Shown piece after piece: positions 23,840 through 29,291 of a stretch of 64,000 nt of DNA; position 1 is the first letter of the stretch, and each line of letters starts with the position of its first letter. This stretch comes from Actinokineospora enzanensis DSM 44649 (GTDB lineage: Bacteria; Actinomycetota; Actinomycetes; Mycobacteriales; Pseudonocardiaceae): assembly GCF_000374445.1 (NCBI RefSeq), contig NZ_KB894439.1, forward strand, positions 1 to 64,000, given 5' to 3'. The position numbers and the translations under genes were made by a program. A model generated the notes under the pieces. That model did no database searches. It saw only the letters and a list, made by a program, of their open reading frames with translations, and had not been told where the DNA came from.

Positions 23840-24550
23840 TCCGGCACCTGTGGATGAATCCCCACACCTGTGGACAACCCGCTCCTTTCCCTTCCACCCA
23901 CACCACAACACCCCGCCCCCGCCCGAACATCACGCCCCCAACACCCAAACCCCACACCCACCCCCACAAGATCATCGACCGCCCCCGGAACACGGCCCCT
24001 CCCACCCGGGGGCTGGCCCGCGCGTGAGCCTATCTGCCCAGTTCAGGGGGCCGGAAGTAGGCAAACCCCGGCTGTGGATGGAAATCGGGGGATGTGGATA
24101 ACTCGTGATCATGGTCAGCCTGTCCGGGCAGACACAATGCGTCACACGGATGCAATCCATCCACATGCCCGACAATCCATCCACAGCGGACCAAGCACCA
24201 CTTCCATTCCCCCGACCTGGGCGAATAGGCTCACGCGCGGGCCAGCCCCGGGTGGGAGGGGCCGTGTCCCGGGCCGGTGTCCGCAGTTGATCTCGGGGCG
24301 GGGGTTCAGGGCGATCCCAAGCCCGGCATCGGCAGCGGTCCATCCCGAGTCCGGTACCCGCGCCGAGACTTCCCCAGGCATCGCTGTGCGGTCGCCGAGT
24401 TGCTTACCGGGCCGGGAAACAGGGCCCTGCAGCCGGACTCGAACCGGCAACCCTTCGATTAGCAGTCACTTGGCGAGCCCGCGTGCCCAGCCGTCACGCC
24501 CCGTGGGCGAGCCCGAGTTATCCACATGGCCCCCGATTCATCCACAGGCC
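23840..24550. repeat. gene-free stretch with four paired DnaA-box modules
   Basis: No gene is apparent between 23759 and 24590. It holds four pairs of 9-mers, each pair exactly 20 bp start to start. A: TGTGGATGA 23849, TGTGGACAA 23869. B: TGTGGATGG 24073, TGTGGATAA 24093. C, inverted: CCATCCACA 24157 and 24177. D, inverted: TTATCCACA 24518, TCATCCACA 24538. TTGTCCACA is the actinobacterial DnaA box and TTATCCACA the E. coli one. B and C also lie in two inverted copies of a longer element (about 23993-24101 and 24276-24157 on the complement) sharing CCTCCCACCCGGGG, GCCCGCGCGTGAGCCTAT and the boxes. dnaA and dnaN are absent nearby, so this is not an obvious oriC. DnaA titration is one hypothesis; a mobile repeat family is another. 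Confidence 0.7.
24425..24470 (-). pseudogene. tRNA 3'-half-like remnant
   Basis: On the minus strand a sequence like the end of a tRNA is present: loop CTGCTAA (24459-24465), TCGAAGGGTTG, a perfect T-arm GCCGG-TTCGAGT-CCGGC (24432-24448) and a 7-nt acceptor-like TGCAGGG (24425-24431). No matching 5' acceptor (CCCTGCA), D-arm or paired 5' anticodon stem lies upstream, so a full tRNA cannot be drawn. Such 3' halves are typical of attachment-site scars left by integrated elements. Confidence 0.5.
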
Positions 24551-24590
24551 AACGATTCCCGCCCCACCCCACCAGCAGGCAGCGATACGT

Positions 24591-25091
24591 TCAGTGCGTG
24601 GGCAAGAGGTCCAGCAGCGGAGTCCACGAAGACTCCGCCGGCGAGTCGTCGATGTGGCAACCGGACTGTCGGAGGGTGGACAGATGCGTGGGAAACAGCG
24701 GGTGGGCACGATGGTCGGCGTTCGCCTGTGGGCGGATGATCACGGGAACGTCAGCAGCGCCAACGGCCTCGCACAGTGCGGTGAGGGCCTGGTTGTCGGC
24801 GATGCCCAGCGCGAGTTTGGCGATCGAGTTGGCCGTCGCCGGGACGAACAGGAACGCGTCCGGCATCGGATACGGCTTGGGCTCGTGCGGGAGGCGGGGC
24901 AGGCTGCGGACCGGCAGGTCGGTGAGGGCCTGCAGCCGGTCCCACTCCCCGGTTTCCGACATCCAGCGACCCGCCTCCGGTGTGAAGGTGATCGCGAGGC
25001 GCCAGCCCCGGGACGCGGCGGGTTCGGCGAGTTCCGGGCGGAGGCGGTGTTCCAGGCCGCCCCCCGCCGCGGCGACCAGGCCGAGGATCAT
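24591..25091 (-). CDS. flavoprotein (HFCD/phosphopantothenoylcysteine-decarboxylase-like)
   Basis: A 166-residue protein of the homo-oligomeric flavin-containing Cys-decarboxylase fold. FLFVPATANSIAKLALGIADNQ is the flavin-binding segment (compare [17 protein letters not shown] in CoaBC of this window), and PVIIRPQANADHRAHPLF corresponds to the substrate-recognition clamp. No CoaB domain is attached. The ATG overlaps the rsmB stop (ATGA). Whether it is a decarboxylase or another flavin enzyme is not clear. Confidence 0.75.
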   Translation of the reverse strand: MILGLVAAAGGGLEHRLRPELAEPAASRGWRLAITFTPEAGRWMSETGEWDRLQALTDLPVRSLPRLPHEPKPYPMPDAFLFVPATANSIAKLALGIADNQALTALCEAVGAADVPVIIRPQANADHRAHPLFPTHLSTLRQSGCHIDDSPAESSWTPLLDLLPTH

Positions 25092-27914: not shown

Positions 27915-28459
27915 CAGCGGGCCCCGAACAGCGGGTGCGGGCTCTGTTTGATCGTCGGCACCGCACCGTCGAACCAGTCGGCCTGCCGGATCTCGCGCAT
28001 CGCCAGCTTGCGGGTCTGCTCGTCGAGCCGGTCGACGAACAGCACGCCGTCCAGGTGGTCGGTCTCGTGCTGGATGCAGCGGGCGAGCAGGTCGGAGCCC
28101 TGGATCTCGATCGGGTCGCCGTACATGTCGAACCCGCGCGCGACCACGTTGCGGTGGCGGCGGCAGTCCCAGTACAGGCCGGGGATCGACAGACAGCCCT
28201 CCTGTCCGTCCTGGACTTCCTCGTCGAGCGCGGTCCAGACCGGGTTGACCAGGTGCCCCTCGTCGCCGTCGCAGTGGTAGGTGAACACCCGCAACCCGAC
28301 CCCCAGCTGCGGCGCGGCCAGCCCGGCCCCGCCCTCGTCGGCCATCGTGTCCGACAGGTCCCGGACCAGGTTCCGCAGCTCCAGGTCGAAGTCGACCACC
28401 TCGGCGGCGGGGCTGCGCAGCACGGGATCGCCGAACAGGCGGATCGGCTGGACGGTCAC
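27914..28459 (-). CDS. def: peptide deformylase
   Basis: Metalloenzyme removing the N-formyl group from new proteins. The three PDF motifs are present: [19 protein letters not shown] (metal cysteine) and QHETDHLDG (two metal histidines and the catalytic glutamate). The GTG at 28459 has GAGGGAG upstream and gives 181 residues; the open frame extends 71 further codons into the repeat array but lacks a ribosome site. Co-directional with fmt. Confidence 0.94.
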
Positions 28460-28499
28460 GAATCTCCCTCGGGTACGCGGTCGCGGTCCGACCAGTGTA

Positions 28500-29291
28500 T
28501 TCACCCGACATCTGCGGTGACGCACCATGGGACACCCCGCCCACCCGGGGCTTTTGGGTCCCACTGGAACCCTACCGCCCCCACGCCCCTGCTCCACGGC
28601 CCGCAGGCGAATACCGGGCCATGTGGACAACTCCCCCGAACACCGAACACGATCACCCCGAATCAAGATCATCCCCCCACGCGCGCCCCGCCCGCCCCAG
28701 GGGTTTCGGGTCCCATGTCAAGCCTACGAGATGTGGATCGTTGTCAATAGGCGTCGGCGAGGGCTGTGGACGGATTCGCGGGATGTGGACAACTCGTCGA
28801 TCGGGCGTGGCCGAGCGGGAGAGAACCCGGGACAAGATCGACAAGTGGCAGGCCGGACCGAGGACATCCCTCCAGGGTCCAAAATCCAGCGTCCGGCCCG
28901 GCGAGGCCACGACCTGCCAAGACGCCTGGCACAGGCGACGCGGGCGACCACCACCGGGAACCCACGACACCAACCACGATCATCGGCGGAACAAGATCAT
29001 CCCGGGCGCGCGCCCCGCCCGCCCTAGGGGTTTTGGGTCCCACTTCAAGCCTATCGAGTTCGCGGGCCTGTCAAGAGGGCCCGCGACGGCATGGGGATGG
29101 CTCGTGGGAATGTGGACAACTCCCGTCGGGGCCCCGGGCGCGTGATCATCCGGATTTCAAGATCATCCCTCGCGCGCGCCCCGCCCTCCCTCGGGGTTTC
29201 GGGTCCCGTTCTGAACTTATCGGATCCGGGGAGTTGTCAAGAGGGGGTGCGGGTGGGGTGGGGATGGATTCGGGGGGTTGTGGACGGCTTT
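28500..29291. repeat. gene-free tandem array of about 160-bp units with DnaA-box pairs
   Basis: No gene is apparent between def (start 28459) and priA (stop 29292). The landmark GGGTCCC, following a GC hairpin of the form CCCGCCCNCCC-GGGG, recurs at 28556, 28708, 29035 and 29201 (steps 152, 327, 166, so one unit is missing or decayed near 28870). Each unit has AAGATCATCC before the hairpin and a CCTAT-type motif after it, and ends in box pairs. E: TGTGGACGG 28765, TGTGGACAA 28784. F: TGGGGATGG 29092, TGTGGACAA 29111. G: TGGGGATGG 29259, TGTGGACGG 29279. The first unit keeps only TGTGGACAA at 28622. Module consensus: TGTGGATGG-(N10-11)-TGTGGACAACTCG. Confidence 0.75.

Follow-up and report, generated by a model that had tools for sequence, protein, structure and literature searches.

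Paired DnaA-like boxes in Actinokineospora enzanensis as part of a dispersed promoter-hairpin repeat, putatively built on a competence-type promoter

The first 64,000 nt of contig NZ_KB894439.1 of Actinokineospora enzanensis DSM 44649 (hereafter the window; contig C37 of our 87-contig, 8.12-Mb genome) contain two long gaps, one between ansA and a flavoprotein gene and one between def and priA, in which pairs of 9-nt boxes resembling the binding site of DnaA recur at a nearly constant spacing. The question raised by this locus is whether the pairs constitute a local DnaA-binding site or belong to something larger. We found that they are part of a promoter-like unit with fixed geometry that is scattered across the genome. 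Judging from the sequences, the window probably contains one local group of copies of a dispersed promoter-hairpin repeat, the intact (type A) copies of which are putative competence-type promoters.

Box pairs in the window and across the genome

Seven pairs lie where the original prediction had placed them, at 23849/23869, 24073/24093, 24157/24177 (−), 24518/24538 (−), 28765/28784, 29092/29111 and 29259/29279, and all seven have a start-to-start spacing of 19 or 20 bp. The half-decayed eighth copy that had been described alongside them is present as a single box, TGTGGACAA, which starts at 28622 (28622–28630) rather than ending there. Perfect TTGTCCACA boxes are located at 23869, 28622, 28784 and 29111 and perfect TTATCCACA boxes at 24093 and 24518, while both boxes of pair 24157/24177 read TGTGGATGG and the box at 29279 reads TGTGGACGG. 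Six of the eight distal or single boxes match TT(A/G)TCCACA perfectly, and the proximal boxes are CCATCCACA-like, a form that was also counted 10 times in regions downstream of dnaA (see below). The claim that the pairing exceeds chance held up as well, with four exact matches to TGTGGAY-N8-16-TGTGGAYAA in the window versus none in 100 shuffles; the literal consensus of the original prediction, with up to three mismatches, gave two matches in the window and none in shuffles. Single boxes were mildly enriched (13 in the window with ≤1 mismatch, against a shuffle mean of 5.9), and one of 100 shuffles reached 13.

Across the 8.12-Mb genome, the same pattern returned 168 exact matches, and its reversed-pattern control returned none. 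Among 120 genomes drawn from the family, 115 contained matches (0 to 168 per genome), with high counts recurring in separate genera (114 in G001, 111 in G115 and 94 in G029) and further counts of 61 in G047, from the genus of G001, and 55 in G119, from the window's genus. When the gap in the pattern was narrowed slightly, 294 genomes of other families (i.e., 296 minus the window genome, G000, and its congener G045) gave 0 to 5 matches each.

The ansA–flavoprotein and def–priA gaps measure 862 bp and 835 bp, respectively, in the window genome. In 12 sister species, the former spans 35–138 bp and lacks any TGTGGA or TCCACA, and the latter spans 45–112 bp in six species, 278 bp and 401 bp in one species each and 1.9–2.3 kb in four, without a box pair except for one match (one mismatch, 16-bp spacing) in the 2.3-kb gap of G125. 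The four long gaps carry open frames of 200–584 codons with gene-like codon GC. Since no such pairs occur at either site in these 12 species, the window copies are lineage-specific repeats.

The original prediction had offered a datA- or DARS-like locus, a replication element beside priA or a mobile repeat lying between genes, with ends similar to DnaA boxes. An eight-copy cluster beside priA speaks for the first of these; however, the genome-wide scatter, together with the lack of conservation at the same two intergenic sites in the sister species, led us to reject a local DnaA locus, whether datA/DARS-like, to which we give next to no credence, or a priA-linked replication element. Scattered matches without positional conservation are indeed the picture that the original prediction had itself set against a DnaA locus. 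Its third proposal survived in part: the pairs do sit in a dispersed repeat, but their likeness to DnaA boxes is more than superficial, as the pair is conserved upstream of competence genes (see below).

Anatomy of the promoter-like unit

Around the pairs we found a larger unit that the original prediction had missed, in which a TANNNT element adjoins each pair, a hairpin is present at most of them and TTGACA occurs on the (−) strand in three copies. Read on the opposite strand, a copy runs TTGTCCACA-N10-CCATCCACA, 38–40 nt, a TANNNT −10 element and then a C-run/G-run hairpin. Seven of the eight window copies have two same-strand TCCACA boxes 17–20 bp apart (start to start) as well as TANNNT 38–41 nt downstream of the proximal box; copy 5 is single-boxed, with its TAGGGT at 47 nt, i.e., outside the 38–40 rule.

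In the ansA–flavoprotein gap, copy 1 (23803–23877, (−) strand) faces ansA and comprises the pair (23849–23877), 40 nt and the −10 element TAGGTT (23803–23808), with no C-run/G-run hairpin seen. Copies 2 and 3, both type A, stand head to head and form an inverted repeat: copy 2 (23995–24101, (−) strand) has its hairpin at ~23995–24013, TAGGCT at 24027–24032 and the pair at 24073–24101, and copy 3 (24157–24262, (+) strand) has the pair at 24157–24185, TAGGCT at 24226–24231 and the hairpin at ~24245–24262. Copy 4 (24518–24591, (+) strand), with its pair at 24518–24546 and TACGTT at 24586–24591, faces the 3′ end of the flavoprotein gene in antisense. The other four copies all lie on the (−) strand. 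Upstream of def, the decayed copy 5 (28535–28630) has a perfect single box (28622–28630), TAGGGT at 28569–28574 and a hairpin at ~28535–28550. It is followed by three type A copies, each with TTGACA (−) between the −10 element and the pair: copy 6 (28686–28792; hairpin ~28686–28703, TAGGCT 28721–28726, TTGACA 28742–28747, pair 28765–28792), copy 7 (29013–29119; hairpin ~29013–29030, TAGGCT 29048–29053, TTGACA 29069–29074, pair 29092–29119) and copy 8 (29179–29287; hairpin ~29179–29196, TAAGTT 29214–29219, TTGACA 29235–29240, pair 29259–29287). Copy 8 shares 85% identity over 185 bp with a copy on contig C3. No terminal inverted repeats were seen in single window type A copies.

We took 126 pairs with their flanks from ~1.49 Mb of the genome, much of it chosen for holding pairs. 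The spacing was 20 bp in 76 pairs and 19 bp in 50. Letters outside the selection pattern were kept, namely the A, A and C after the second box (90–95%) and the T at position 10 (87–90%), unlike most spacer letters, which drift. TTGAC followed the pair at 14–18 nt (opposite strand) in 72 of the 126 sites. In 62 sites, TANNNT began at a distance of 38, 39 or 40 nt from the pair, and in most of these the C-run/G-run hairpin came next. When 95 TANNNT hits were sorted by distance, none fell into the 20–30-nt bin and one into the 50–60-nt bin. In a second arrangement (type B), the −10 element and hairpin flank the pair on its opposite side; such copies often form tandem arrays, with a unit length of ~97–150 bp. 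The C-run/G-run hairpin pattern occurred in 61 of 84 leaders, and a G-quadruplex motif was present on the RNA-like strand of 35 of 62 leaders (shuffle mean, 13.5; maximum, 19) and on the opposite strand of none.

The same order of elements, in other letters, was found in A. auranticolor (G119), which belongs to the window's genus and has a −10 element at 37–40 nt in 10 of 19 pairs, and in G115, from a different genus, with a −10 element at 38–40 nt in 12 of 15 pairs; the distance from pair to −10 is thus kept between genera with different sequence. G115 also carries a second, palindromic form of the repeat (~200 bp with long inverted flanks; L127 and L129), in which outward-facing PafBC/RecA-NDp-like promoters surround the box pair and one end reads TTGTCGGTG-GCGTGCCG-TAGCGT, i.e., TTGTCGGTG-N8-TAGCGT. 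A half copy of this G115-type form is found in the def–priA gap of A. pegani (G124).

Of the sites that could be placed relative to genes with a simple ORF (open reading frame) caller, which left locus-edge sites uncounted, 8 fell in called ORFs versus 114 between genes. The intergenic sites comprised 48 convergent, 58 co-directional and 8 divergent gaps, so convergent gaps were favoured (convergent gaps make up 25% and divergent gaps 19% of intergenic bases), and the promoter was oriented with the genes in 38 of the 58 co-directional cases.

These features bear on the view that the copies are an inert selfish or REP/MITE-like repeat that carried a promoter-like module along when it formed, so that most copies would be inactive and their constraint would reflect common ancestry. 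The copies are mutually homologous (92 non-overlapping matches of ≥80% over ≥80 bp), form tandem arrays, sit mostly at gene ends and are absent from the sister-species sites, all of which would fit such a repeat. Against this view, unselected box letters hold while most spacer letters drift, and the pair-to-−10 distance persists across genera of different sequence. Moreover, neither a Y1 transposase (REP/RAYT, Y1_Tnp) nor a DUF222 protein was found in the genome, and both a REP element with a RAYT transposase and a DUF222-linked repeat were accordingly discarded as candidates. An inert repeat is therefore somewhat unlikely in our estimation.

Box pairs upstream of competence genes and their candidate binder

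In low-copy genomes, the genes seen with promoter pairs were comEA (SLBB + HHH_3), UPF0102/yraN, DUF4192 and SAF-domain and SSB genes. Pairs also precede Tad-pilus, RcpC/SAF, recQ and ssb genes, with one to three examples of each. Three genes were examined at 30 loci each, one per genus of the family, from 39–40 genomes with a match, and a pair was scored if its 12 core letters matched with ≤1 mismatch at a spacing of 16–21 within ~450 bp upstream. A pair preceded yraN (heading yraN-comM-dprA) in 27 of 30 genera, of which 22 were exact; for comEA(-comEC) and DUF4192 the count was 25 of 30 each, with 22 and 20 exact, respectively. The reversed string was found in 0 of 30 in each case. Over the 60 yraN and comEA loci, 54 pair matches fell within the 29.4 kb of upstream sequence versus 5 in the other 178 kb. 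Every comEA promoter with a pair (25/25) also had TANNNT 38–41 nt from the box.

The neighbouring genes confirm the competence function of the pair-bearing operons: yraN is followed by YifB/ComM and DprA (L159), comEA by ComEC (L096), and a pair-bearing Ssd gene by TadA and two T2SSF proteins (L106). The window genome itself has pairs at comEA (TTATCCACAACCCTCGGAATCCATCCACAG), DUF4192, Ssd, an RcpC/SAF gene and a RecQ-like helicase gene. Taken from sequence comparison, the link between the box pairs and a competence regulon appears strong, and a dispersed repeat whose core is a conserved promoter of the competence type is a well-supported reading. The pair at DUF4192, whose function is not known, in 25 of 30 genera suggests a role for this gene tied to DNA uptake. 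Neither ansA nor def seems to have been an ancestral regulon member, since such a pair is missing at these genes in the 12 sister species.

Several observations weigh against a competence-type promoter repeat. The 126 sites are a non-random sample, many loci having been picked because they bear pairs, and 64 of them (40 type B, 24 unclassified) have no −10 element at 38–40 nt; type B copies instead show a single box 38–42 nt upstream of the −10 element in 22 of 51 cases and an inverted box at 30–31 nt in 22 of 51. TTGACN and TANNNT are separated by 15 bp in 32 of 33 copies, which is short for a housekeeping promoter. The stability of the leader hairpins exceeds that of mononucleotide shuffles only slightly (mean z of −0.74, n = 61; −0.31 for the 23 leaders without the hairpin pattern), and a strong conserved RNA hairpin was rejected on this ground. 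TANNNT at 30–50 nt was found in 0 of 27 yraN and 0 of 25 DUF4192 promoters with pairs; the looser (T/C)ANN(G/T)T, counted without a control, occurs at 39–40 nt in 19 of 27 and at 38–40 nt in 13 of 25, respectively. The yraN gene of the window genome has no pair (L199), and some pair-bearing genes have no known competence role (a dihydrodipicolinate synthase family gene, an M23 peptidase, Fer2 and further genes that gave no Pfam match). At the class level, a full pair was present at only 8 of 29 comEA loci (control, 0 of 29), with four loci partial, and at least one TCCACA core at 22 of 29, a figure that has no single-core control.

The link to competence genes would also suit DNA-uptake sequences recognised during transformation. 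Such sequences are very improbable here, however, considering that there are only 168 exact matches in 8.1 Mb, that the sites lie mostly between genes (114 versus 8, as above) and that the fixed −10 distance would be left unexplained.

Which protein might bind the pairs? The com box consensus, T-T-(G/A)-TCCACA, equals the DnaA consensus, including the G/A at position 3. We scanned 1.5 kb in each of 30 regions downstream of dnaA (L264–L293, one region shorter), which are presumed oriC regions with dnaN unchecked, and found that the spacings between TCCACA cores on one strand show a peak at 20 bp (15 cases, versus 1 at 19 bp and 4 at 21 bp), with a second peak at 9–12 bp; 14 of the 30 regions have same-strand boxes exactly 20 bp apart. 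On these grounds DnaA is, with modest confidence, the most likely candidate binder of the paired boxes, and the DnaA idea overall is unproven. Three genera stand against it: in G008, G020 and G036, the 1.5 kb scanned past dnaA lacks a TCCACA core, yet exact pairs are kept at comEA and yraN in G008 and G020 and at yraN in G036. Their oriC may lie elsewhere than in the scanned region.

A dedicated competence activator with a DnaA-box-like site may bind the pairs instead of DnaA, and this is a serious possibility, if short of probable. A fixed pair at −55/−75 would suit such a protein, as would the class-level comEA counts (8 of 29 full pairs against 22 of 29 loci with a core) and the com pairs of the three genomes just named. 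Less compatible with it are the identity of the box letters to the DnaA consensus and the same 20-bp, same-strand pair in 14 of 30 presumed oriC regions. Alternatively, the many pairs could soak up DnaA genome-wide and thereby time replication. TT(A/G)TCCACA occurs 64 times in 678 kb of contiguous stretches (reversed string, 0), with 34 of the 64 within pairs, which speaks for titration; we nevertheless consider it improbable, given a copy number of 0 to 168 among the 120 family genomes and a fixed-distance −10 element, unneeded for titration, at half of the sampled sites.

Under a competence-type promoter, the intact type A copy would work as follows. Two TT(G/A)TCCACA or CCATCCACA boxes, on the same strand and 19–20 bp apart, lie ~39 nt upstream of TANNNT, with the hairpin directly after. 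An activator occupying both boxes, about two helical turns apart at roughly −55 and −75, would recruit RNA polymerase to a weak promoter. Module and hairpin leader would have multiplied in this and a few other lineages, mostly in gene-end regions, and the copies would fire together with the competence genes, giving short hairpin or G-rich transcripts that may sometimes read into a neighbour, e.g., ansA or def. The copies may also titrate the regulator. Only tentatively do we extend this to the proposal that natural competence in Actinomycetes has DnaA as its chief activator. DnaA would act through two boxes, two helical turns apart at about −55/−75, in the promoters of comEA-comEC, yraN-comM-dprA and the Tad-pilus, ssb and recQ genes, and would thereby tie uptake to replication state. 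In some Pseudonocardiaceae, this promoter would then have been multiplied into hundreds of dispersed elements, from which G-rich hairpin RNAs would be fired when cells are competent.

What turns competence on in Actinomycetota is still being sought; a 2026 paper on Micrococcus luteus states that the regulatory nodes and the signals upstream have yet to be identified (PMC12849477). The pair at a fixed −10 distance (comEA), together with the pair at yraN and DUF4192, in 25–27 of 30 genera, offers a concrete site for fishing out the regulator and points to a testable switch controlling DNA uptake in actinobacteria. It would also link replication, through DnaA, to DNA uptake and suggests that a regulon promoter can turn into a dispersed repeat. 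By title and abstract, the open-licence literature yielded no prior report of this repeat and, for DnaA box, comEA and competence, nothing on regulation; in a term search of a review on DnaA as a transcription factor, "competence" was absent.

Neighbouring genes and comparison with known systems

All genes around the two gaps lie on the (−) strand. Pfam identified ansA (L-asparaginase, 22778–23731, downstream of copy 1, start codon unmapped), the flavoprotein gene (24591–25112), rsmB (NusB + RsmB/F methyltransferase, 25088–26572), fmt (methionyl-tRNA formyltransferase, 26985–27914) and priA (29292–31664). The def gene (peptide deformylase, 27914–28459) was assigned from its translation and the name given in the original prediction, with an orthologue at the same place in the 12 sister species. 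The rsmB–fmt gap (26572–26985) is 415 bp here versus 0–107 bp in the sister species, and it contains a 78-nt repeat of another kind in two copies (26740 and 26923), which are 76% alike. Among named relatives, those nearest to this PriA come from Actinokineospora species. PriA has a low-complexity insertion of ~115 residues (about 424–536; window ~30051–30404, (−) strand), and in 12 genus relatives its match is split at the insertion point into two pieces that abut, or nearly so, in the genome. A contig titled Vibrio cholerae (L320) carries an Arthrobacter-like priA and is thus probably contaminated or wrongly labelled. Elsewhere in the window, a Septu-type defence pair (19986–22081, (−) strand) consists of the PtuA ATPase (20720–22081; PADLOC E-value, 1.4e-180) and the PtuB HNH protein (19986–20723; E-value, 1.3e-97). 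The 5′ end of a 16S rRNA gene (1–129, (−) strand), at the window's edge, was the only known RNA family in the window at gathering threshold.

REP and BIME elements are short hairpin repeats that lie at gene ends and form tandem arrays. The present repeat resembles them in all three respects and differs in that no Y1/RAYT transposase was found in this genome. Smulczyk-Krawczyszyn and colleagues reportedly described, in 2006, DnaA-box clusters in Streptomyces with DnaA boxes outside oriC; here, the boxes form pairs spaced 17–20 bp and are tied to competence genes, with a fixed-distance −10 element at comEA and in many repeats. In other bacteria, competence promoters are marked by conserved upstream sites (the ComK boxes of Bacillus, CRP-S and comX boxes). 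The pairs share this conserved upstream position and differ in their DnaA-like TT(G/A)TCCACA letters and their occurrence in Actinomycetes.

The RecA-NDp/PafBC promoter motif is given as tTGTCRgtg-8-TannnT (PMC5656591). In that form, the motif is matched by the end of the G115 palindromic form. By eye, TTGTCRGTG-8-TANNNT was not seen in the window copies, which have TTGACA-15-TANNNT or no such −35 element instead.

Neisseria is a genus known for competence. Its Correia repeat enclosed elements (CREE) are intergenic repeats of roughly 70–160 bp, present in >100 copies and able to generate promoters, to bind IHF and to fold into RNA hairpins (PMC2649163). The two share >100 copies of a short intergenic repeat with promoter and hairpin features. 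They differ in that no terminal inverted repeats were seen in the window type A copies and in that, here, what is conserved at the core is the promoter, whose activator-type box pair is common to competence genes.

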